From Planctomycetaceae bacterium (GTDB lineage Bacteria; Planctomycetota; Phycisphaerae; Phycisphaerales; SM1A02): a DNA stretch of 64,000 nucleotides. A program made the translations under genes and the position numbers. Shown here one piece after another: positions 11,527-23,926 of the stretch (positions are counted from its first letter, which is position 1; every line of letters starts with the position of its first letter). The notes beneath the pieces were generated by a model. It was not told the DNA's origin. It saw nothing but the letters and a program-made list of their open reading frames with translations, and searched no databases. The stretch covers positions 1-64,000 of the forward strand of contig CANLMX010000008.1 in the NCBI GenBank assembly GCA_947492385.1, in the 5' to 3' direction.

Positions 11527-11546
11527 TATCCTAACAAACACCGTAC
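11527..11546 (+). promoter_or_regulatory. Candidate damage-response operator/promoter of imuA, identical to one before dnaE2
   Basis: The sequence tatcctaacaaacaccgtac is identical over 20 bases to 15181-15200 upstream of dnaE2. It begins with TATCCT, a plausible -10 hexamer, and extends through the expected transcription start; ATG 11550 lies three bases downstream. Flanking bases differ on both sides, so the block itself is conserved. I see no match to the CTGT-N8-ACAG, GTTC/GAAC or other LexA boxes I know. Confidence 0.7.
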
Positions 11547-11549
11547 CGC

Positions 11550-12434
11550 ATGCGCCTTGAACGCCCCCATCTCCTGGCGGAGTGCATCGCCCGGCTCGAG
11601 CGCACGTGCGGCGAGCGGGGCGCGGGCGGTCCGCGTGTCGCCACCGGATGGCCTGCGATCGACGCGCATCTCGGCGGCGGCATCGCGTCCGCCGGGCTGC
11701 ATGAATGGTGGGGCGCGAGCGAGGACGTGCGTGCCGTGCTGGTGCAGCTTGCTTGGCGCGCCGTGCTGCAGGACGATGCCGAGCGGCCCGGGCAGTGCCG
11801 CCATGTGGCGTGGGTCGGCCGGGCCGCGTGGCCGTCTCCCGATCATCTGGTGCGGGGCCTGCGTGCACCCCTCGCCGGCATGTTCGGCGCGACGCGCATT
11901 CCTTCCTGGCCTGACGCGCGGCTGCACGACCGATCGATCCTCGTCGACGTGCCCGCGCATGACGACGGTGCGCGCCTGTGGGCCATCGAGCAGGCGGCCC
12001 GCTGCCCGGGCGTGTGTGCGGTGGTGGCCGACGGTCGCGGGTTCCCGATGCCGGCCACGCGTCGCCTGCAACTGGCGTCTTCGGGCACGCTGCTGCTGTC
12101 CATGCGTGGCCCCGAGCGCCGCGCCGGCGAGCGGCGCACCGTGCCCAGCGCGTGCGCCACGCGCTGGTGGGTGACGCCCGCCAGCGGCATCCGCGAGGTG
12201 CCATGGCTGCGCGCGATGCATGCGCTGGCTGCCCGCATCGTGCCCGAGCCTGCGTGGACCGTGCGTCTCGAGCGCGCCAAGGGCGTTGGCATCGACCCGG
12301 ATGCGTGCCCCGAGGCAGTCGCGACCGAGTGGTGGCGCACCGAGGGCGTGCCGGACGCGCCCGCGCGCGTGCGCCGCGTGCGCGCCCACCGCGTGGCGCG
12401 CGCGGCGTCGTTGCGCGAGGCGCGCGCATCCTGA
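11550..12434 (+). CDS. imuA: ImuA, RecA/SulA-like accessory protein of the ImuB-DnaE2 mutasome
   Basis: This 294-residue protein is the first gene of the imuA-imuB pair. ImuA proteins are RecA-like folds that work with ImuB and the error-prone polymerase DnaE2 in damage-induced mutagenesis. Family features are VATGWPAIDAHLGGGI followed by GLHEWWG near residues 30-55, an internal RecA-like beta-alpha region with SILVDVPAH and GVCAVVADGRGF, and TRRLQLASSGTLLLSM. As in other ImuA proteins, no classical Walker A GKT/S is seen where RecA has one. The C-terminus is Arg/Ala-rich. It is followed after nine bases by imuB. The upstream 20-bp motif shared with dnaE2 argues for co-regulation. Confidence 0.88.
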   Translation: MRLERPHLLAECIARLERTCGERGAGGPRVATGWPAIDAHLGGGIASAGLHEWWGASEDVRAVLVQLAWRAVLQDDAERPGQCRHVAWVGRAAWPSPDHLVRGLRAPLAGMFGATRIPSWPDARLHDRSILVDVPAHDDGARLWAIEQAARCPGVCAVVADGRGFPMPATRRLQLASSGTLLLSMRGPERRAGERRTVPSACATRWWVTPASGIREVPWLRAMHALAARIVPEPAWTVRLERAKGVGIDPDACPEAVATEWWRTEGVPDAPARVRRVRAHRVARAASLREARAS

Positions 12435-12443
12435 GGTGGCGTC

Positions 12444-13481
12444 ATGCACGCGCGTTCACAGCCATGGTTCGCGGCCATCGTGCCGGTGCGCCCGGCGCCG
12501 GGTCCCGCGGCGCTGCGTCGGATGGCCGAGCGGTGCCTGCGGTGGACGCCACGCGTCCATGCCGAGCACGTGGAGGGCGATTGGCCGCTCATCCTGCTCG
12601 ACCTGCGCGGGTGCCTGGAGGTGCACGGCGGTGCGCCGCGCCTGCGCGAGCGCATCGCGCGTGCATTCGCGCGGCGTGGCATCGAGCACGCATGCTGCAT
12701 GGACGCGTGTGCGGGAGCGGCCGCGGCGCGGGCCACGGCCCATGCGATCGAATTGAGCGCATCCCGCACGCCCGGCGCGGCGCTGCGCGTGCCGCTGGAT
12801 CGGCTCGCGATCGAGTCGCTCCGCATCGGTGCGGACGCGTGCGCCGCGCTGCGTGAAGTGAACGTGCGCTCCGTGGGCGAGCTGCGCGCGATCGGCCGTG
12901 CCGCGCTCGCCGACCGGTTCGGACCCACGGTGGGCATGCGGCTCGACCAAGCGTCGGGCGCACGCGCGTGGGACTTCGTGCCCATCCCGCATCCGGACCC
13001 GCCGCGCGCCGCATTCGAGTTCGCCTCACCGTGCGCGTGCCCCGAGGCGACGGCGCGCGCCACGCGCCATGCGCTCGAGGACCTGTGCACGGCGCTTGCC
13101 GCGCGCGCCCGCGGCGTCCGGGCCCTCGCGGTGCGCATGGAGCGCGCCGGGCTTCCGGCGGTGCGCGGCACCGTGCACCTGGGCGTGCCCACGCGCGACG
13201 CCGCGCACCTGTGGGCAGTGCTGCGGCCGCGCGTCGAGCGCATGCACCTGGGGCGCCATGAGCTGGGGCAGGGCGTCGAACGCATCGCGTTGGTCGCCCT
13301 GCGGACGGGGCGGGTGCCGGACGGGATGGGCGCGCTCGTCCCAGGCGTGGGGACGCGCGGCATGCCGGCGGCGCCCGGGGGCCCCGGCCCGGCCGATGCC
13401 GCGCGGCGTGCGCTCGGCGAACTCGTGGACCAGCTCGCGGCGCGCCTCGGCGACGATGCCGTGCGCCGGCCCGCGACGTGA
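12444..13481 (+). CDS. imuB: ImuB, Y-family polymerase-like protein, short form
   Basis: This 345-residue Y-family (DinB-like) protein is the hub that, in known systems, recruits DnaE2 to the beta clamp. Visible regions are WPLILLDLRGCLEVHGG and ARRGIEHACCMDACAGAAAARA (palm/fingers), PLDRLAIESLRIGADA (start of thumb), SVGELRAIGRAALADRFG (helix-hairpin-helix-like), and a little-finger region ending LGELVDQLAARLG. It is clearly shorter than the usual 450-500 residues. It ends soon after that segment, so the C-terminal tail that normally carries clamp-binding and DnaE2-interaction sequences is missing. No QLxLF/QLPLWG-type motif is seen. The acidic catalytic residues of active Y-family enzymes are also not evident, as expected for ImuB. 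The ATG is preceded by GAGGTGG. Confidence 0.85.
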   Translation: MHARSQPWFAAIVPVRPAPGPAALRRMAERCLRWTPRVHAEHVEGDWPLILLDLRGCLEVHGGAPRLRERIARAFARRGIEHACCMDACAGAAAARATAHAIELSASRTPGAALRVPLDRLAIESLRIGADACAALREVNVRSVGELRAIGRAALADRFGPTVGMRLDQASGARAWDFVPIPHPDPPRAAFEFASPCACPEATARATRHALEDLCTALAARARGVRALAVRMERAGLPAVRGTVHLGVPTRDAAHLWAVLRPRVERMHLGRHELGQGVERIALVALRTGRVPDGMGALVPGVGTRGMPAAPGGPGPADAARRALGELVDQLAARLGDDAVRRPAT

Positions 13482-13490
13482 TCGCGTCCC

Positions 13491-13496
13491 TACACT
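13491..13496 (+). promoter_or_regulatory. -10 hexamer TACACT, 6 bases before ATG 13503
   Basis: TACACT lies just behind the imuB stop and six bases before the ATG, predicting an independent leaderless transcript for the small lipoprotein gene. Confidence 0.5.
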
Positions 13497-13502
13497 CGCC
13501 GC

Positions 13503-14009
13503 ATGCGTGCCCACGTCCTCCCTGCCGTCGCGGGATTCGTCGCCTTCGGCGCGCTTGCCGGCTGCAACCCCTACCTCGAGCACTACGAGGGCGAGCGTTT
13601 CGCGCCGGTCGAAGCCGCGCGCATCGTCGAGGCACCGCCCGCCGACAGCGAGGCCCGCCTCATCGGGACCAGCGAGTTCCGCACCAGCGACACGGCGCTG
13701 CGCGAGCGCCACGTGCTCGACGCCGCGTGCGCCGTCGGTGCCGACCTCGCGACCTGGAGCGTGAAGTGGGACGGCCGCGAGACGCAGGTCGATGCCGACC
13801 CCATCATGCAGCGCGGCATCTCCGAGCGCGGCACGTTCGCGACGTACGTCCCGGTCGTGCGCACGCACGACGCATGGAAGCACGTCGCGCACTTCTACCG
13901 AAGCACCGGAGCCGTCAGCGCGGGGCCGGCGCAGGCGCCGGTGCCGGTGCCTGCGTCGCCGGTGCGTTCACCGGAGCCGCCGCCGCCGGTGCCGCCGCCG
14001 GGCCCGTGA
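13503..14009 (+). CDS. Small lipoprotein of unknown function
   Basis: This 168-residue protein has a signal peptide and a lipobox GALAGC near residue 20, then about 120 residues with no recognised domain (contains RTSDTALRERHVLDA and ISERGTFATYVPVVRTHDAW). A Pro/Val/Ala-rich tail ends PPPVPPPGP. The last 95 bases overlap the 3' end of the convergent YHS gene. Where the two overlap, both proteins have low-complexity Ala/Pro tails. It separates imuAB from dnaE2, but its leaderless-type promoter suggests it is not part of their regulon. Confidence 0.75.
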   Translation: MRAHVLPAVAGFVAFGALAGCNPYLEHYEGERFAPVEAARIVEAPPADSEARLIGTSEFRTSDTALRERHVLDAACAVGADLATWSVKWDGRETQVDADPIMQRGISERGTFATYVPVVRTHDAWKHVAHFYRSTGAVSAGPAQAPVPVPASPVRSPEPPPPVPPPGP

Positions 14010-15135
14010 CGATCGTGAGCTCGGGCCCCTTCGTGCCTTCCTTCTCGCCGGTGGGGTAGGTCACCCACTGCGTCGGCAGGCGCAGCGCCTGCGGGCCCGC
14101 ATCGCCGAGCGCGTCCATCGTGAGCGACATCACGCGCGACTGCGTGTCCCGGCCCATGGATCCCATCTGCACCATGCGGCCCGTGGCCTTGTCGATCGCC
14201 AGGTGCGTGGCGTTGCCCTCGAACCACGTCACCACGTAGTCGCAGTCGTAGGGCCCGAGCTTCCCGCCGCCGGTGCGGATGACGAGGAGCCCTGCCTCCG
14301 GCCGCACGCGCGCACGCAGGATGGACCACGGCAGGCGGTTGAGCTGGCGCTCGAACGCGGTCCGGCGCGTCCCGTAGAGCTCCTGTGCGCCGGGCCCCTC
14401 GGGGCCGATGATCGCGCGTTCGGGCGTGAGGATCGTCTCGATCACCGTGGGATCCGCCTGCGGATCGCCCACCTTGCGCCACGTGACGCGCTGGCGCGCG
14501 CGCGTGGGCCCGGTGATCTCGAGTTCCTCGATGCGGTCCCATTCGGCGCCGCTCGCCTGCACGCGCTCGGTCGACGTCTGGCGGTACGTCTCGGCCTTGC
14601 GGATCGCGTCCTTGCCGCCCGCGTACGCCACCCAGCGGTCGAACGCGGCCATGCCGTCGATCTGCGCGTCGGGAAGGCCTGACGGCAGCTGGTCGTAGGG
14701 CTCCATGTGGCCGTGCGGGTTCGCCTTGAACGTCGCCATGCACTCGGGCGACGCGAAGAAGTACAGGAGGCCTTCCTCGATCGCGTATCGCCGCGCATCG
14801 CCGAGCCCGCCGAGCGGACCCATGCGCCCGCACGCGCCGGCGTCCGTGGCGGCGTAGGTGCGCGGGTCGCGCATGAAGGTGTCGCGCGTGTCCTTGGTGG
14901 TGAACACGTAGGTGTTGCCTTCGAACGCCACCGCGAGCGATCGGTCTCCCGCAACGGCCTTGCCTTGCTTGAGCATCACCGGGTCGACCGGCAGCAGGCG
15001 GTCGGGGCGCACCATCTGCTGCACGGCGGGCGTGGCGCCCTCGGCCGGCAGCGAGACCGCCACGGGCTCGTTCTGCGCGAGGGCGGGGGCGGCGAGGATC
15101 AGCGTGAGCAGGGAGGTCGTGAGCTTGCGCGGCAT
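13915..15135 (-). CDS. Exported YHS-domain protein of unknown function
   Basis: This 406-residue protein has a cleavable signal (LTLILAAPALAQ). A YHS-like segment at about residues 55-135 (VMLKQGKAVAGD, AVAFEGNTYVFTTKDTRDTF and FFASPECMATFKANPHGH) resembles domains in metal-handling proteins. The second half looks like an outer-membrane-associated beta fold with WDRIEELEITGPTRARQRVTW and DYVVTWFEGNATHLAIDKATG. The C-terminus is an Ala/Pro repeat overlapping the convergent lipoprotein gene by 95 bases. The ATG at 15135 was chosen over an upstream in-frame codon at 15219 because the signal peptide follows it directly and 15219 lies inside dnaE2. Divergent from dnaE2 with 74 bases between starts. 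Confidence 0.78.
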   Translation of the reverse strand: MPRKLTTSLLTLILAAPALAQNEPVAVSLPAEGATPAVQQMVRPDRLLPVDPVMLKQGKAVAGDRSLAVAFEGNTYVFTTKDTRDTFMRDPRTYAATDAGACGRMGPLGGLGDARRYAIEEGLLYFFASPECMATFKANPHGHMEPYDQLPSGLPDAQIDGMAAFDRWVAYAGGKDAIRKAETYRQTSTERVQASGAEWDRIEELEITGPTRARQRVTWRKVGDPQADPTVIETILTPERAIIGPEGPGAQELYGTRRTAFERQLNRLPWSILRARVRPEAGLLVIRTGGGKLGPYDCDYVVTWFEGNATHLAIDKATGRMVQMGSMGRDTQSRVMSLTMDALGDAGPQALRLPTQWVTYPTGEKEGTKGPELTIVTGPAAAPAAAAPVNAPATQAPAPAPAPAPR

Positions 15136-15180
15136 GGCAGGAGCGCATTCGTACCCGGAGCCGGGCGCGGTTCCAGAGCA

Positions 15181-15200
15181 TATCCTAACAAACACCGTAC
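15181..15200 (+). promoter_or_regulatory. Candidate damage-response operator/promoter of dnaE2, identical to one before imuA
   Basis: The 20 bases tatcctaacaaacaccgtac match 11527-11546 exactly; ATG 15210 lies nine bases downstream. The TATCCT can serve as the -10 hexamer and the downstream AACAAACACC would cover the transcription start, a position suited to a repressor or damage-responsive activator. Confidence 0.7.
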
Positions 15201-15209
15201 AAGAACGCC

Positions 15210-18200
15210 ATGCCTGCATCGCCCACGTTCTGCGAACTGGCCGCCGCCAGCAACTTCTCGTTCCTTGACGGTGCCAGCCACCCCGAGGAAGTGGTCGCCC
15301 GCGCCGCCGAGCTTGGCATGCCTGCGGTCGCCATCGCCGATCGCCACACGATGGCCGGCGTCGTGCGCGCCCATGTGGCCGCGCGCGAGGGGCCGGTGCG
15401 GCTGGTGGTGGGCACGCGCTGCGAGTTCATCCTGGGTGCCGACGAGGAGCCTGCGCACGTCGAACTCGTCCTGCTTGCAGCCACGCCCGAGGGCTATGCG
15501 CGGCTCTGCCGGCTGCTGACTCTGGGCAAGCGCCGCGCCGGCTGGACGCTCGACCTCGAGGCCAGTGCGCTCGCTGCCGAGGGCGGCGTGCGCGGGCGCC
15601 AAGACGCACGCGACGCCACCGCGTGCCGACTGTGGCTGCATGACCTCGTCGACGCGTCGGTGCAGGCACTCGGCTCGGGCGAGCCCGGTGGCAGCGAACC
15701 GGGCGGGCGCGCGCCCGACGCGCCGCGCGCGATGGCACCGACGGCGCTCCCGGGCGTCGAGGCCATCGTGATGCCGCCCGAGGGCTACGGCGCGATGCAG
15801 CCGCGGTTCCTCGAGGCCCTGCGCTGGCTGCGCGGCGTGTTCGACGGCGACCGGCTGTCGCTCGGGTTCGTGCGGCGCCAGGGCCCCGACCACGCGCTGC
15901 GCCTGCTGCAGTTGGAATGGCTGTCGCAGGAAGCCGGCGTGCCGCTCGTGGCGACGAACGACCCGCGCTGCCACGATCCTGCGCGTCAGGACCTGCACGA
16001 GGTGCTGACGGCGATCCGCGCACGCCGCACGGTGGACGAGTTGCGGCGCCTGGAGCGTTCGCGCCCGGTGGACCTGGCGCACGGGTGCGCGTGGGACGGA
16101 CCGAGGCCTGCGCCCGGCGGCGCGCGCGCCATGGTGGGCCATGGCGGCATCGTGCGGATGCTCGACGGCGTGCCTGCGGACGTGGTCGCGCAGGCGATCG
16201 CACGATCGGTGGCCGTGGCCGGTCGCTGCGCGGGGTTCTCGATGGACATGCTGCGCTACCGGTGGCCGTCCGAGACGGTTCCCGCCGGCCGCACGCCCGA
16301 CGGCCACCTGCGTGCGCTGGTGGAGCACGGCGCGCGCGAGCGCTGGCCCGAGGCCGCGGGCGGCGTGCCCGCGCGCGTGCGCGCACAGCTCGAGCACGAG
16401 CTGTCGGTGATCGCGGACCTTGGCTATGCGCGCTACTTCCTCACGGTGCACGGGATCGTCGCCTTCGCGCGCGGCCGCGGCATCCTGTGCCAGGGCCGCG
16501 GCGCCGCGGCCAACAGCGCGGTGTGCTACTGCCTGGGGATCACGGCGGTCGATCCCTCGCGCGCCGAGATGCTCTTCGAGCGGTTCATCAGCCGCGAGCG
16601 CGACGAACCACCGGACATCGACGTCGACTTCGAGCACGAGCGCCGCGAGGAGGTGATCCAGCACGTCTACGCCACGTACGGCCGCGCGCGCGCGGCGCTC
16701 TGCGCGGAGGTCGCGTGCTGGCGCGGGCGCAGCGCCATCCGCGGCGTCGGCGCCGCGCTGGGGATGGACGACGGGCTGGTGGACCGGCTGGCACGCGCCG
16801 CGGACTGGTGGGGCGAGCTCGACGGCATCGAGGGCCTGCGCGGGCAGCGCGACGGGCGCTGGCGCGACCCGCCCGACCGCGCCGCACGGCTTCGCGAGCT
16901 GGGGCTCGACCCGGCGGATCCGTCGATCGCGCGCCTCTTCGGGCTCGCCGGGCAGCTGCTGGGCTTCCCCCGGCACCTGTCCCAGCACGTGGGCGGCTTC
17001 ATCGTCACCGACGCACCGCTCTGCGAACTGGTCCCCGTGCGCAACGCGGCCATGGAGGACCGCACCGTCATCGAGTGGGACAAGGACGACGCCGACGCCA
17101 TGGGCATGCTGAAGGTCGACGTCCTGGCGCTCGGGATGCTGACGGCGATCCGCAAGGCGATCGACCTCTGCAATGCGCATCCGGTGCCGGGCGTGCCGCG
17201 GCCGCTGACGTACCGCGACGTGCCCCCCGAGGACCCGGGCGTCTACGAGATGGTCTCGCGGGCCGACACGGTGGGGGTGTTCCAGATCGAGAGCCGTGCG
17301 CAGATGAGCATGCTGCCCAGGCTGCGGCCGCGCTGCTTCTACGACCTGGTGATCGAGGTGGCCATCGTCCGCCCCGGCCCCATCCAGGGCGACATGGTGC
17401 ACCCGTACCTACGCCGACGCGACGGCACCGATCCGGTCGAGTATCCGAGCGAGGCCGTGCGCGCGGTGCTCGGGCGCACGCTCGGCGTGCCGCTCTTCCA
17501 GGAGCAGGCCATGGCCATGGCGGTGGTGGCCGCGGGGTTCACGCCGGGCGAGGCCGACCGCCTGCGCCGCGCGATCGCGGCCTGGAAGCGTTCGGGCAAC
17601 CGGATCGCCGAGTTCGGCGCGCGCCTCGAGCGCGGCATGCTCGAGCGCGGCTACTCGCACGAGTTCGCGTGCCAGGTGTTCCGGCAGATCCAGGGATTCT
17701 CCGGGTACGGGTTCCCCGAGAGCCACGCGGCGAGCTTCGCGCTCCTGGTCTATGTGTCGGCGTGGATCAAGCTGCGCCACCCGGCGGCGTTCCTGGCGGC
17801 GATCCTCAACAGCCAGCCGATGGGCTTCTATGCGCCCGCGCAGCTGGTGCGCGACGCGCGCGAGCACGGCGTCGAGGTGCGGCCGGTCGACGTGCTCCGC
17901 AGCCGGTGGGACTGCACGCTCGAGGACGTCCCCGGCGCCATGCCCGCCGTGCGCCTGGGGATGCGCATGGTGGCGGGGCTTGCCGAGCACGAGGCGCGCG
18001 CGGTCGAGCAGGCGGTGCAGGAGCACCGGCCGCACGCGCGTGCCGCGCACACCGGACCCGACGCGGCCGCGCCCACCGTCGAGCGTCTGTGGCGCGCCTC
18101 GGGCTGCGGCGTGCGCGCGTTGCGGTGCCTGGCACGGGCCGATGCGTTTGCGGGGCTGGGCGTCCCGCGGCAGCAGGCGCTCTGGCAGGTGCGCGCCCTG

Positions 18201-18716
18201 CGCGGGCTCGCCGAACCCGTGCTCGACCATGCGGCAGGAGAGGGTGCCACGCTCTTCGACCTGGCACCGCAGCCCTTGCCCGCGGTGAACCCGCTGCGTG
18301 CGGTGGTGGCCGACTACGCGGGCACGGGGCTCTCGCTGCGGGCGCACCCCGTGTCGTTCGTGCGCGACGGGCTCGCGCGCCGCGGCGCGGTGGAGTGTGC
18401 GCGCATGGCGGCCTTCCGCCGCGCGACAGTGGGCGGGCTGGTGACGTGCCGTCAGCGGCCATCCACGGCGTCAGGCATCCTGTTTGTCACGCTCGAGGAC
18501 GAGACGGGCGTGGCCAACCTCATCGTGCGGCCGCGCACCTACGCGCGGTTCCGTGCAGTGGCGCGCCATGCGTCCGCGCTGGTCGCCGAGGGCCGCGTGG
18601 AGCACCGGTCGGGCGTCACGCACCTCATCGTGCGAAGTCTCGCGGACCTGGGCCCGGACCTCGCCCGCGCCGCCGAGGGCGAGGCGGTGGCGCGGCGATC
18701 ACGGGACTTTCGATGA
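15210..18716 (+). CDS. dnaE2: Error-prone DNA polymerase III alpha subunit DnaE2
   Basis: This 1168-residue C-family polymerase performs translesion synthesis with ImuA and ImuB. Domains in order are an N-terminal PHP domain beginning with CELAAASNFSFLDGASHPEE and ADRHTMAGVVRAH, the polymerase core with CQGRGAAANSAVCYCLGI, and the catalytic aspartates in PDIDVDFEHERREE. Next come GFPRHLSQHVGGFIVTD, VGVFQIESRAQMSMLPRL, VRPGPIQGDMVHPYLRRR and the tandem helix-hairpin-helix region with GYGFPESHAASFALLVY. A C-terminal OB-fold has VTCRQRPSTASGILFVTLED. The opening and the domain set distinguish DnaE2 from the replicative DnaE1. The stop overlaps the convergent Cys-rich gene by 18 bases. Confidence 0.96.
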   Translation: MPASPTFCELAAASNFSFLDGASHPEEVVARAAELGMPAVAIADRHTMAGVVRAHVAAREGPVRLVVGTRCEFILGADEEPAHVELVLLAATPEGYARLCRLLTLGKRRAGWTLDLEASALAAEGGVRGRQDARDATACRLWLHDLVDASVQALGSGEPGGSEPGGRAPDAPRAMAPTALPGVEAIVMPPEGYGAMQPRFLEALRWLRGVFDGDRLSLGFVRRQGPDHALRLLQLEWLSQEAGVPLVATNDPRCHDPARQDLHEVLTAIRARRTVDELRRLERSRPVDLAHGCAWDGPRPAPGGARAMVGHGGIVRMLDGVPADVVAQAIARSVAVAGRCAGFSMDMLRYRWPSETVPAGRTPDGHLRALVEHGARERWPEAAGGVPARVRAQLEHELSVIADLGYARYFLTVHGIVAFARGRGILCQGRGAAANSAVCYCLGITAVDPSRAEMLFERFISRERDEPPDIDVDFEHERREEVIQHVYATYGRARAALCAEVACWRGRSAIRGVGAALGMDDGLVDRLARAADWWGELDGIEGLRGQRDGRWRDPPDRAARLRELGLDPADPSIARLFGLAGQLLGFPRHLSQHVGGFIVTDAPLCELVPVRNAAMEDRTVIEWDKDDADAMGMLKVDVLALGMLTAIRKAIDLCNAHPVPGVPRPLTYRDVPPEDPGVYEMVSRADTVGVFQIESRAQMSMLPRLRPRCFYDLVIEVAIVRPGPIQGDMVHPYLRRRDGTDPVEYPSEAVRAVLGRTLGVPLFQEQAMAMAVVAAGFTPGEADRLRRAIAAWKRSGNRIAEFGARLERGMLERGYSHEFACQVFRQIQGFSGYGFPESHAASFALLVYVSAWIKLRHPAAFLAAILNSQPMGFYAPAQLVRDAREHGVEVRPVDVLRSRWDCTLEDVPGAMPAVRLGMRMVAGLAEHEARAVEQAVQEHRPHARAAHTGPDAAAPTVERLWRASGCGVRALRCLARADAFAGLGVPRQQALWQVRALRGLAEPVLDHAAGEGATLFDLAPQPLPAVNPLRAVVADYAGTGLSLRAHPVSFVRDGLARRGAVECARMAAFRRATVGGLVTCRQRPSTASGILFVTLEDETGVANLIVRPRTYARFRAVARHASALVAEGRVEHRSGVTHLIVRSLADLGPDLARAAEGEAVARRSRDFR

Positions 18717-21700
18717 GTTCGCGGGCAGCGCCGCGGGCTTGCCCGGAGCGGGCGCGGACACTGGCGCGATCGTTGCCGGGGCCGGGCGCCGTCGCGGCGG
18801 CACGGGCTGCTTCGGGCGGGCCGGGACCGTCACGCCCGGCGGAGGCGCGACGGGCTCGCGGATCGGGATGAGCGGCATCGCCGTGGGCGGCACGCTCGGC
18901 GGGTTGCGGAACCGGCCTGGCTTCACGTCGCCCGTCGGGTCGAGTCCCTTGATCACGCCCTCGAAGGGCGCGCCGCAGAAGATGGTCGCGAGCTTGACGC
19001 ACGACGAATCCCACGAGTCGTCGCAGCAGTCCGGATCCGCCGCGCACACGAACTGGCAGCAGCCGCCGTCGCTGCAGCCCGGGTTCAAGTGCTCGGTGAA
19101 GCAGCTGCCGCTGGCCGGGTCTCCGCACACGCCGATCTCGCACTCGCACGACGGGGTCTTGCGCGCCTGCTCGACGCAGTTGGCGTCCCAGCGTGTCTCG
19201 CAGCAGAAGGAGTCGAGCGCACACACGGCGGTGCAGCACGCCTCGTTCGAGCAGTGCGGCACGGGGCTTGCGACGCAGCAGTTCGGAAGTTCATCGCTGC
19301 CGCAGGTCGGCGCCGGGCAGGCCTCGTCCTGGCCGTCGCAGAACTGGCGTGCCGTCGAGGCGCAGTCGCCGTCCCACACGTTGTCGCAGCAGAACGGGTC
19401 GATCTTGCAGACCGTGTCGCAGCAGTCGGCGTCGTCGCACCCACCGTTGTCGTGCGCGCTGCAGCAGTTGCCTGCGCACGGATCGCCGCAGGTGAAGCCG
19501 CACCCGCAGTCCGGGATGGCGCGCGCCTCGTCGACGCAGTTGATGTCCCAGGTGGTGTCGCAGCAGAACGGGTCGATCTTGCAGACCGCGTCGCAGCAGG
19601 TGGCATTGGTCGACGCGGGGTCGGCGTGGACGCGGCAGGGCGGGCCCGCCGTCTCGTCGCCGCACTGGGGCAGCACGCACACGTCGGCGTTCTGGGGGTC
19701 CTTGGCGAGCGCGACGCACTCGTTGTCCCACTCGATGGTGCAGCACTCGGGCCGCAGCTTGCAGATCGTCCCGCAGCACTGGGGCTGGTTGCAGCCGGGC
19801 GTCTCGTGGAAGTCGAACGGCGTGCCGGCGTCCTGCATGCCGCAGGACCCCGCGCACCGGCGCGCGGCGATCTCGACGCACAGCGCGTCCCACGCGAACT
19901 CGCAGCAGGTGATGTCCTCGGCGCACACCGTGGCGCAGCAGTTGGGGTCGTCGCAGAAGGGCTCCGCATGGAGCTCGAGGCAGGGCTTGTTGCAGCCCGA
20001 GCCGCATCCCACCGGGCCGCAGCAGTGCAGGCGCGCCAGGCTCACGCACTCCTGGTCCCAGTCGTTCTCGCAGCAGGTCGGGCTGATGTTGCACACGACC
20101 GTGCAGCACGTGCCGCGGTCGCACCCCGGGTTGTCGTGCGCGCTGAAGCAGTCGCCCGCGCACGGGCACGGCCACGGCTCGCCGGACTGCTGCTGGCACC
20201 GCTGGCGCGCGATCTGGACGCAGTTGGTGTCCCACTCACCGTTGCAGCAGATGGGGTCGACGATGCAGGTCGCGTTGCAGCAGGACGGGTCGTCGCAGCC
20301 GGGATTCTGGTGCGCGGCGAAGCAGTCGCCGTCGCTCGGGCACGAGCCCGGCGACACGCAGATGCCGGCGGCTCGCGTCGCGCACTCCTGGTCCCATGCG
20401 TCGGTGCAGCACCGCGGCGAGACGCTGCACACGGTCCGCATGCACTGCGCCGACGCGCAGCCCGGGCTCTCGTGCGCATCGAGGCAGCCCTCGCGGCCGA
20501 TCTGCGTGGGGAACGTCGCGGTGCAGAGCTCGTCCGCCTGGTACGCGCAGACCGAGTCCCAGCGCGTCTCGCAGCAGTAGGGGTCGATGAACTCGCAGAT
20601 CTTCTCGCAGCACGCCTGCTGGCTGCAGCCGCTGGACCAGTAGCTGCCCACCCAGCAGCTGCGCGGGGACTCGCCGCAGGTATCGCCGGGGGCGTCGCAC
20701 TGGGCGTTGGCCAGCGCGACGCAGATGTCGTCCCACGCCTTGCCGCAGCAGATTGGGTCGAGGGCGCACACCTTCTGGCAGCAGGCCTCGTCGGAGCAGT
20801 TCGGGGTCCCGTGCGGTTCGAAGCAGCTCCCGGAGAAGAGGTCGCCGCAGGAGTCGCACGTCTGGGCCGCCAGCTTGGCGCACTCGGCCGACCACTCGAT
20901 GTCGCAGCAGGTCGGGTCGATCTTGCACACCGCGTCGCAGCAGCCGGGCCGGTCGCACCCGGGGGTCGCATGCTCCACGAAGCAGCTGCCGGTCACGGGC
21001 AGCACGCCGTCAGGCTGCAGCACGCACGCGCGGTTGATGGTGCAGAGCTGGTTGGCGCCGTCGACGCAGACGCTGTCCCACGCGACGAAGCAGCAGTAGG
21101 GGTCGCGCTGGCAGATGATCTGGCAGCAGTACGGGTCGCCGCAGCCGCCCTCGCGCTGCTCCTCGAAGCAGCTCACGGGTGGCTCGCCCGGGTCGGGCAG
21201 CCGGCACACGCAGCGCTGGTCGCTGCACTGCGGCGTGGTCACCGCCAGCAAGGTGCAGTTGAGGTCCCAGGCGTTCTCGCAGCAGAAGGGGTCACGTTCA
21301 CAGACGGCCTCGCAGCAGTCGCCGTCGTTGCAATACGGAGTCGGGTGGATGATGCAGCAGCTTCCGGCGGAATCCGAGCCGCATCCGGAGCAGCGCTGCG
21401 ACGCCAGGTTGACGCAGACCTGGTCCCACGTCACCGAGCAGCAGTCGGGGCTGATCTCGCAGACCGTTTCGCAGCAGGCTTCGTTGGAGCAGTACGGGTT
21501 CTCGTGCACCTCGTCGCAGTCGCCGGCGACCACCTTGCCGCAGGCCAGGCACCGCTCGGCCGCGAGGTCGGCGCAGTTTGCGTCCCAGCGGACGGAGCAG
21601 CACGACGGGTCGAACTTGCAGACCAGGTCGCAGCACGTCTGGTCGTTGCATCCGGCGGTGTCGTGCGGCTCGAGGCAGCTTGCGTCGGTGAGGCCGCACT

Positions 21701-23096
21701 GGTTGCAGCGGGCGTCGGCGAGGTCGGCGCACTGCTGGTCCCACACCTGCGAGCAGCAGGTCGGGTCGACCTCGCACACCGTCGTGCAGCAGTCGGCGTC
21801 CGTGCATCCGCGGCCCGCAGGCTGGGCCTGGAAGCAGTTGCGGGTGGAACCGTCGGGATTGAATTCGCCGCAACCGGTCTGCACCGTGCCGCACGTGGGG
21901 TTGCGCACGAAGGGCGTGTCGCTGACGGCGGTGATCGTGAACAGGCCGTTGGTCATCCGGTTGGCGATCACCGGGTTCGAGGCCGAGCGGCAGCGGTACG
22001 GGTGGATCGGCGACACCTGCGTGCCGCCGGAGCCGATCGGGCCGAGTTCGTTCTTGTCGCCGCGGTCGGCGAAGATGCACCCGTACGACGAGACCTGCTC
22101 GCCGCGGATCAGGGTCATCGCATCGACGATCGCGTCCCACGGGGGCAGGGAACCCGAGCCGGGCACGAGCCACGGAAGGGCGCACTGGGTGTCGGGGTCG
22201 TTGAATGCGCCGCTCACGCGCTGGCCGACCGCCGGGAGGGCGCGCGTGTTCGCGGGATCGGGGTCGCGGTAGACGATCAGGTGCGTGACGTTGGTGCTGA
22301 TCTCGTTGGGGAACGTGATGCCGCCCACCGTCCCCGGCAGGGCGAGCGATCCACCCGGCGGCAGGGGGAACTCCCACTGGCGCGAGTTCAGCGGGACCGC
22401 GTCGGGCACCGGCGTCGCCGGCACGAACGAGCTGTCCGTGACGAGGGAGAGACCCGAGGAGAAGTCGGCGTTGACCGGGTCATTCACCCACGGCATGCCC
22501 TCGAGGTCGACGACGACGCCGATGGTGCCGTACAGCGCCGTGGCGCTCGTGCTGCGCGCGACCTTGAGATAGAACCATCCCTCCCCGTAGAGCCGCGTCG
22601 AGTTGGTCGGGTCCGCCGGGTTCGGCAGGTCGATCGTGGGGAACGCGCCCGCAGGTGCGTTGAGCGGCGTGCGGATCTCGACGTACCTCGACTGCGGGAT
22701 CGCCGGGTTCGTCTGCGACGCCGGCTTCGCGACGCGCACCTCCGAGATGATCGTCCGCGGCAGCTTGCCGATCGCGGGGTTGGCCGCCATCTGCACCAGG
22801 CGCTCGAGGTAGTTGAGGTCGTTCTGGTCGATCAGTCCGTCGTAATTGAAGTCGCCCCACTGGCAGTAGACGCCGGACGCAGCCAGGTTGTCGCGAATGC
22901 ACGCGGCCCAGAAGTCGACGTCGTCGGCGTTGACCCGCTGGTCGTTGTTCAGGTCACCGAGGAACAGAGACTCCCGCGCGAGGTTGCACGCACCCGCCGG
23001 GTCCGCACACTGCGCACGCGCACCGCTCACCGCGCCGAGGAGGCTTGCGACGAGGGCGAAGGCGATCAGGAACAGCGGGCGAACTTCACGAACCAT
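18699..23096 (-). CDS. Giant secreted protein: dockerin-like calcium loops, lamin-tail-like region and 17 Cys-rich repeats
   Basis: This 1465-residue exported protein starts at 23096, where a signal peptide follows (LIAFALVASLLGAVSGARAQ). Residues about 46-100 contain two dockerin/EF-hand-like calcium loops, LGDLNNDQRVNADDVDFW and WGDFNYDGLIDQNDL. Residues about 110-390 form a beta-rich region beginning IISEVRVAKP, resembling a lamin-tail domain. Residues 420-1374 are 17 tandem repeats of 45-70 residues. The core is C-F-x-x-H-x-x-P-G-C-x-x-x-x-C-C-x-x-V-C-x-x-D-P-x-C-C-x-x-x-W-D-x-x-C-V-x-x-A, with about ten cysteines each. A 90-residue Pro-rich tail ends the protein. Heavy disulfide bonding and surface or extracellular location are inferred; function unknown. 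An upstream TATCTATCC may be its promoter. In-frame extension to 23783 runs through uppS and is rejected. Confidence 0.9.
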   Translation of the reverse strand: MVREVRPLFLIAFALVASLLGAVSGARAQCADPAGACNLARESLFLGDLNNDQRVNADDVDFWAACIRDNLAASGVYCQWGDFNYDGLIDQNDLNYLERLVQMAANPAIGKLPRTIISEVRVAKPASQTNPAIPQSRYVEIRTPLNAPAGAFPTIDLPNPADPTNSTRLYGEGWFYLKVARSTSATALYGTIGVVVDLEGMPWVNDPVNADFSSGLSLVTDSSFVPATPVPDAVPLNSRQWEFPLPPGGSLALPGTVGGITFPNEISTNVTHLIVYRDPDPANTRALPAVGQRVSGAFNDPDTQCALPWLVPGSGSLPPWDAIVDAMTLIRGEQVSSYGCIFADRGDKNELGPIGSGGTQVSPIHPYRCRSASNPVIANRMTNGLFTITAVSDTPFVRNPTCGTVQTGCGEFNPDGSTRNCFQAQPAGRGCTDADCCTTVCEVDPTCCSQVWDQQCADLADARCNQCGLTDASCLEPHDTAGCNDQTCCDLVCKFDPSCCSVRWDANCADLAAERCLACGKVVAGDCDEVHENPYCSNEACCETVCEISPDCCSVTWDQVCVNLASQRCSGCGSDSAGSCCIIHPTPYCNDGDCCEAVCERDPFCCENAWDLNCTLLAVTTPQCSDQRCVCRLPDPGEPPVSCFEEQREGGCGDPYCCQIICQRDPYCCFVAWDSVCVDGANQLCTINRACVLQPDGVLPVTGSCFVEHATPGCDRPGCCDAVCKIDPTCCDIEWSAECAKLAAQTCDSCGDLFSGSCFEPHGTPNCSDEACCQKVCALDPICCGKAWDDICVALANAQCDAPGDTCGESPRSCWVGSYWSSGCSQQACCEKICEFIDPYCCETRWDSVCAYQADELCTATFPTQIGREGCLDAHESPGCASAQCMRTVCSVSPRCCTDAWDQECATRAAGICVSPGSCPSDGDCFAAHQNPGCDDPSCCNATCIVDPICCNGEWDTNCVQIARQRCQQQSGEPWPCPCAGDCFSAHDNPGCDRGTCCTVVCNISPTCCENDWDQECVSLARLHCCGPVGCGSGCNKPCLELHAEPFCDDPNCCATVCAEDITCCEFAWDALCVEIAARRCAGSCGMQDAGTPFDFHETPGCNQPQCCGTICKLRPECCTIEWDNECVALAKDPQNADVCVLPQCGDETAGPPCRVHADPASTNATCCDAVCKIDPFCCDTTWDINCVDEARAIPDCGCGFTCGDPCAGNCCSAHDNGGCDDADCCDTVCKIDPFCCDNVWDGDCASTARQFCDGQDEACPAPTCGSDELPNCCVASPVPHCSNEACCTAVCALDSFCCETRWDANCVEQARKTPSCECEIGVCGDPASGSCFTEHLNPGCSDGGCCQFVCAADPDCCDDSWDSSCVKLATIFCGAPFEGVIKGLDPTGDVKPGRFRNPPSVPPTAMPLIPIREPVAPPPGVTVPARPKQPVPPRRRPAPATIAPVSAPAPGKPAALPANSSKVP
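18974..21839 (-). repeat. DNA encoding 17 divergent Cys-rich protein repeats
   Basis: The repeats diverge at the DNA level, but recurring pieces such as gtcgatcttgcagacc and cagcagaacgggtcgat (read on the plus strand) show recent duplication of some units, notably the two around 19380-19600 that both encode CKIDPFCCD. The arrangement also creates long spurious plus-strand reading frames. Confidence 0.75.
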
Positions 23097-23188
23097 GGGG
23101 GTGCTGCGTCCGGATAGATATACGATCGTCGGGGCTCGGCACGGGCAGGGGAACCGCCGGATTTTGCAAGATTCCCGGACCTTGCGGA

Positions 23189-23926
23189 TCACGGGGCGGG
23201 GGCGTTCCGGGCCAGGCCGCCGAACGTGCGGTGGCGCGCGCCGAAGTCCTCCAGCGCCGCCCGAAGCTCGGGCACGCGGAACTCGGGCCAGAGCACGTCC
23301 GTCACATGGAGCTCGGCGTAGCTCAGCTGCCACAGCAGGAAGTTGGAGAGGCGTCGCTCGCCTGCCGTCCGGACCAGCAGGTCGGGATCCGGCAGCCCGC
23401 GCGTGTCGAGCGCTCCCGAGATCGCGTCCTCGTCGATCGCCTCCGGGTCGAGCCCGCCGCGGCGGACCCGCTGCGCAAGTGCACGCACGGCGTCGACCAG
23501 TTCCTGGCGCGCCCCGTAGTTCATCGCCAGGCACAGCGTCATGCCCCGGCAACGGCTCGTCTCGTCCTCGGTGCGGTCGAGCTCCGCGAGCACCGGTGCA
23601 GGCAGCCCCTCGCGCCGACCGATCCGCCGGAAGCGCACGTCGTTGGCGAGCATCATCTGGCGCTCGAGCTGCAGGTGGTGGCGGGCGAGCTCCATGAGCG
23701 CCGCCACCTCGTCCTCGGGGCGCTTCCAGTTCTCGCTCGAGAACGAGTAGAGCGTGAGCGCCTCGACCCCCAGCCGTGCGCACTCCTCGACCACCCCGCG
23801 CACGCGCCGCGCGCCCTCGCGATGTCCCGCGATGCGCGGCAGCCCCCGCGATTCGGCCCAGCGGCCGTTGCCGTCCATGATGATCGCCACGTGGCGGGGG
23901 ATGCGCGCCGGGGCGTCGTCAGGCAT
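23189..23926 (-). CDS. uppS: Isoprenyl (undecaprenyl) diphosphate synthase
   Basis: This 245-residue cis-prenyltransferase makes the polyprenyl diphosphate used as lipid carrier for cell-wall and surface glycan synthesis. Hallmarks are HVAIIMDGNGRWAESRGLPR (catalytic Asp binding the magnesium-pyrophosphate), GHREGARRV, LTLYSFSSENWKRPEDEV, the basic and aromatic residues of the second substrate site in DLLVRTAGERRLSNFLLWQ, and YAELHVTDVLWPEF. All conserved regions are intact and the length is normal. The start codon overlaps the end of purA by eight bases, indicating a purA-uppS operon. Confidence 0.96.
   Translation of the reverse strand: MPDDAPARIPRHVAIIMDGNGRWAESRGLPRIAGHREGARRVRGVVEECARLGVEALTLYSFSSENWKRPEDEVAALMELARHHLQLERQMMLANDVRFRRIGRREGLPAPVLAELDRTEDETSRCRGMTLCLAMNYGARQELVDAVRALAQRVRRGGLDPEAIDEDAISGALDTRGLPDPDLLVRTAGERRLSNFLLWQLSYAELHVTDVLWPEFRVPELRAALEDFGARHRTFGGLARNAPAP

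Follow-up and report, generated by a model that had tools for sequence, protein, structure and literature searches.

A 20-base block that occurs twice in the window (the whole 64-kb stretch of DNA analysed) is, on comparative sequence evidence, a real SOS (DNA-damage) operator of its planctomycete order, standing before recA, lexA, imuA and dnaE2, and it is very probably the binding site of the LexA repressor. The basis for this reading is the sequence itself, its conservation, the membership of the regulon, a direct-repeat architecture and the canonical LexA of relatives, from which we infer LexA binding, repression and damage induction at the block. The two copies, TATCCTAACAAACACCGTAC, are located at 11527-11546 and 15181-15200, both on the forward strand, and a sequence-only reading had placed them there, unique in the window and upstream of both units of the error-prone mutasome. 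This was confirmed: no further match with up to 3 mismatches was present in the 64-kb window, where 100 dinucleotide shuffles gave an expectation of 0, nor elsewhere in the 2.07 Mb bin of the same genome (G000), in which a reversed-pattern control also gave 0. The gene calls for imuA and dnaE2 hold by their profile scores, the DnaE2 assignment being firm (NF004225, 1253.9 bits against a cut-off of 939) and the ImuA match weak but significant, while ImuB yielded only sub-threshold Y-family matches in Pfam and NCBIfam. The imuA start codon (ATG at 11550) lies 3 bases after the end of the first 20-mer and that of dnaE2 (ATG at 15210) 9 bases after the end of the second. The features are listed in Table 1.

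Table 1 Features around the two copies of the block, in window coordinates
Feature	Position	Strand	Evidence or remark
Putative SOS box of the imuA-imuB unit	11527..11547	+	TATCCT (-10-like) overlapping direct repeat
imuA (294 aa)	11550..12434	+	NF033429, E=1.2e-8, below curated cut-off
imuB (345 aa), short and diverged Y-family-like protein	12444..13481	+	Weak Pol IV / IMS_C matches; position after imuA
Predicted lipoprotein gene, between imuB and dnaE2	13503-14009	+	
YHS-like exported protein gene, between imuB and dnaE2	about 13915-15135	-	
Putative SOS box of dnaE2	15181..15201	+	TATCCT overlapping direct repeat
dnaE2 / imuC, error-prone DNA polymerase (1168 aa)	15210..18716	+	NF004225

In the other genera in which both genes could be read, dnaE2 follows directly after imuB, and the box, where found, stands before imuA. 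In this genus two other genes (13503-15135 in the window) part imuB from dnaE2, and dnaE2 has a box of its own; what other genera have as a single imuA-imuB-dnaE2 operon is here divided into two units with one box each. The identity of the two copies over 20 bases might point to a recent duplication on the spot or to a repeat arisen by chance, but their flanking sequences are unrelated, the chance expectation is 0, and other genomes of the genus keep each copy separately with its own small differences, as the sequence-only reading had argued from the flanks; order-wide conservation already refutes this explanation, and it can practically be dismissed. The reverse strand carries a very long ORF of 1694 aa at 18699-23783, in which a dockerin-like segment occurs together with numerous Cys-rich repeats (CCxxVCxxDPxCCxxxWDxxC).

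Within the genus, the block stands before imuA, before dnaE2 or before both in nine other members, chiefly as TATNCTAACAAANACCGTAC (the form in G008 is weaker), and a wider search yielded more copies, including those before dnaE2 in G013 and before imuA in G004, G005 and G009. A third site, CCTACCAAACACCGAACA, precedes recA in the genome of the window (G000:C10:53596-53613) and, by a relaxed pattern, in most genus members, which places the same type of site before three damage genes (imuA, dnaE2 and recA) of one genome. Many 2-mismatch matches in AT-richer members of the genus were chance matches inside genes, with controls equally frequent. Across 151 genomes of the order, CCTNACAAANACCGWACA with at most 1 mismatch gave about 95 matches, against about 10 for the reversed control. 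Outside the genus, coordinates put 28 of the 64 matches upstream of recA, imuA-imuB-dnaE2 or the lexA operon, one further match precedes an ImuA-like ORF in G050, and many of the remainder are chance or unplaced. That the block is conserved upstream of imuA and dnaE2 within the genus, and that across the order it also precedes recA, imuA operons and the lexA operon, supports the earlier proposal of a damage-response promoter/operator block, and the search of the own bin and of relatives that had been suggested with it located sites before recA, the lexA operon, imuA and dnaE2. Single boxes were also seen before a DprA-like gene (G093:C6:128712, L339) and a small regulator-like gene (G150:C111:5556, L312), both possible extra members of the regulon. 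A phylum-wide search outside the class showed no overall enrichment (36 matches and 34 controls, counted by hand), and families f21 and f70 there may carry the box. At eight dnaE2 loci of other planctomycetes the direct-repeat matrix found nothing convincing, apart from a single site in L007, some 2.9 kb upstream of dnaE2.

The same motif was recovered independently of the window. An EM motif search that was blind to the block, given the upstream regions of 59 recA genes of relatives outside the genus, returned ATCCTAACAaAtACCGAACA (23.5 bits), also written ATCCTAACAAATACCGAACA, which is the motif of the window block. In a three-fold hold-out, 51 of the 59 held-out recA regions scored at least 10 bits compared with 1 of 59 reversed regions; 7 of the 59 were without a good site. 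With the recA matrix, sites of at least 16 bits were present in 11 of 18 independent imuA loci and in none of the reversed controls, the background of the matrix being about 0-1 sites per 1.06 Mb. A scan of contigs with DnaE2, which returned mostly other phyla, was used as alphaproteobacterial control and background only. Applied to the window (64 kb scanned), the matrix gave 22.7 bits for the dnaE2 box, CCTAACA (15184-15190) - N4 - CCGTACA (15195-15201), which is the top site, 14.0 bits for the imuA box, CCTAACA (11530-11536) - N4 - CCGTACC (11541-11547), and 4.1 bits for the next-best site.

The self-similarity of the motif matrix is 0.67 at a shift of 11 and at most 0.30 at the other shifts from 3 to 13, and no inverted symmetry was found, so the motif is a direct repeat, CCTAACA-N4-CCGWACA, and not a palindrome, as had been noted from the window. 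The recA promoters across the order have the form TTGACA-N16/17-[TC]ATCCT, with the box covering the -10 and the start region, and the earlier description of TATCCT as -10-like fits this arrangement. In 23 of the 59 recA regions a second box lies exactly 47-48 bp further upstream, immediately ahead of the -35, and this geometry would fit repression by occlusion. The paired boxes, 47-48 bp apart, flank the -35 TTGACA (recA regions L249-L276 and L347-L386). In neither window copy is a -35 recognisable, and if TATCCT is the -10, both leaders in the window would be very short. It is highly improbable that the copies merely share a core promoter, in other words a pattern of -10 and start region with no specific regulator: the TATCCT/TATACT hexamer is -10-like and lies 16-17 bp from TTGACA in recA promoters, but the conserved half CCGWACA falls outside the -10, the second box stands upstream of the -35, the order-wide matches cluster before damage genes in about tenfold numbers over controls (about 95 and about 10), and the whole own bin holds only the two matches at up to 3 mismatches.

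The alphaproteobacterial LexA box is GTTC-N7-GTTC (PMC8565304; PMC3323433), which on the opposite strand reads GAAC-N7-GAAC. In the control set, GAAC-N7-GAAC was found upstream in 30 of 30 alphaproteobacterial dnaE2 loci (31 sites), and the matrix of the order aligned in register with the matrix from these sites, an alignment equalled by 9 of 1000 column shuffles. Shared by the two are the direct repeat with a period of 11 bp, the A-rich spacer and the position before imuA-imuB-dnaE2, and some genera of the order even have exact GAAC-N7-GAAC (recA regions of G046, G050 and G057). The half-sites of the order differ in being TAAC and then GWAC rather than GAAC, with CC before each, and the host lineage is unrelated; the window copies, being TAAC-N7-GTAC, do not match GAAC-N7-GAAC exactly. 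We take the recognition helix of LexA here (TKVTVFEHVEAL) to be unlike the alphaproteobacterial one. From the in-register alignment, the reading that suits the block best, as regards its form, is that of a LexA box of the alphaproteobacterial kind that has diverged, and the statement that it matches no known type of LexA box was not upheld.

Other known damage boxes are less similar. The Gram-positive LexA box (GAAC-N4-GTTC) shares the CGAAC half-site, but it is a palindrome that the window block does not match, and the order-wide motif, like the block, is without inverted symmetry. Upstream of recA in G018 (L269), a perfect palindrome of the Gram-positive type, CCGAACAGATGTTCGG, lies between the -35 and the -10 beside the direct-repeat box, and a like arrangement occurs in G030, G066 and G089, so that both arrangements of the CGAAC half-site coexist. 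With the E. coli LexA box (CTGT-N8-ACAG) the regulon logic is shared (recA, lexA, error-prone polymerases), whereas that box is a palindrome of other bases and is not matched by the block. The PafBC / RecA-NDp promoters of mycobacteria have the same TANNNT form of -10 hexamer, but their upstream feature, a TTGTCRGTG-like element, is found at neither window block. Seventeen kinds of LexA box were counted in 2021, with strong change between bacterial groups (PMC8565304), and no LexA box for this lineage appeared in the papers searched.

LexA (PF01726) was detected in 145 of the 151 genomes of the order and in 10 of the 14 of the genus. The LexA of genus member G006 scores 162 bits with TIGR00498 (cut-off 111), and in alignment with E. 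coli LexA it has the Ala-Gly site, the Ser and the Lys at matching positions. Neither LexA nor an S24 peptidase was found in four bins of the genus, namely the bin of the window itself (G000, 69% complete), G004 (97% complete), G009 and G013. The boxes are nevertheless conserved in all four, and because they are intact there the missing LexA is likely to reflect gaps in these assemblies (MAGs). The box also precedes the lexA operon, in G067, G090, G063, G031, G102, G061 and members of the genus, about 280-920 bp before lexA and upstream of a co-directed ORF; these sites are weaker than the recA sites, mostly about 10-18 bits, and the forms in the genus are weaker ones. The undescribed SOS repressor or activator that the sequence-only reading had proposed is not needed, given a canonical LexA in most relatives.

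Control of recA, imuA and dnaE2 could in principle lie with a damage regulator distinct from LexA, be it an activator or a further repressor, for example of XRE or WYL type, and the four bins that keep boxes with no LexA or S24 peptidase detected, one of them 97% complete, the non-palindromic motif and the weaker sites upstream of lexA would all suit it. We consider such a regulator unlikely, since in several genera the lexA operon itself has the box in front of it, as is usual for LexA boxes, the motif agrees with the alphaproteobacterial LexA box both in its half-site and in its direct repeat of 11-bp period, LexA was detected in 145 of the 151 genomes of the order, and the surroundings of the boxes showed no other regulator gene that was conserved. 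In the favoured LexA reading, a LexA dimer would bind both half-sites from the same side of the helix, and LexA bound over the -10 and the start would exclude RNA polymerase, keeping recA, lexA and the imuA-imuB/dnaE2 mutasome low. Upon DNA damage, RecA filaments would lead LexA to cleave itself, and all copies of the box would be released together; a copy for each of the split units would keep the parts of the mutasome co-induced.

The ORF that precedes lexA in relatives starts downstream of the box, usually with the conserved terminus PLVxLGPGG[DS][FY], and runs in the +2 frame across the LexA start and the whole helix-turn-helix region. The loci with this overlap, all in relatives and outside the window, are L149-L178, L239, L343 and L344 (e.g. 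L157 in G067, L163 in G043 and L154 in G006). In every one of the 30 loci examined the +2 frame stays open through the overlap, with its stop at nt 200-221 of lexA. It contains 0 stops in the overlap, compared with 60.4 +- 7.2 in synonymous simulations, and 84 in the rest of lexA against 126 expected, while frame +1 has 72 stops in the overlap against 99 expected. Synonymous variation is reduced, the same codon being used 1.42 times as often as expected within the overlap and 1.13 times as often in the rest of lexA. A terminal QxxLF, which has the form of a sliding-clamp-binding motif, contributes its Q, L and F to the most strongly constrained sites of the overlap. These patterns suggest that the SOS operon contains a hidden gene overlapping lexA. 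On balance we favour the combined proposal that the box controls an order-wide SOS regulon and that the lexA operon hides, in another frame, a second protein ending in QxxLF and thus resembling clamp-binding proteins.

With the box defined, the SOS regulon of these little-studied bacteria becomes predictable, and a direct-repeat operator resembling the alphaproteobacterial one in a distant lineage allows convergence and common origin to be compared. The mutasome operon, here split and provided with a second box, clearly illustrates the retention of a regulatory site when an operon breaks up. If the overlapping gene is real, a single stretch of bases would yield both LexA and a clamp-binding protein on SOS induction.
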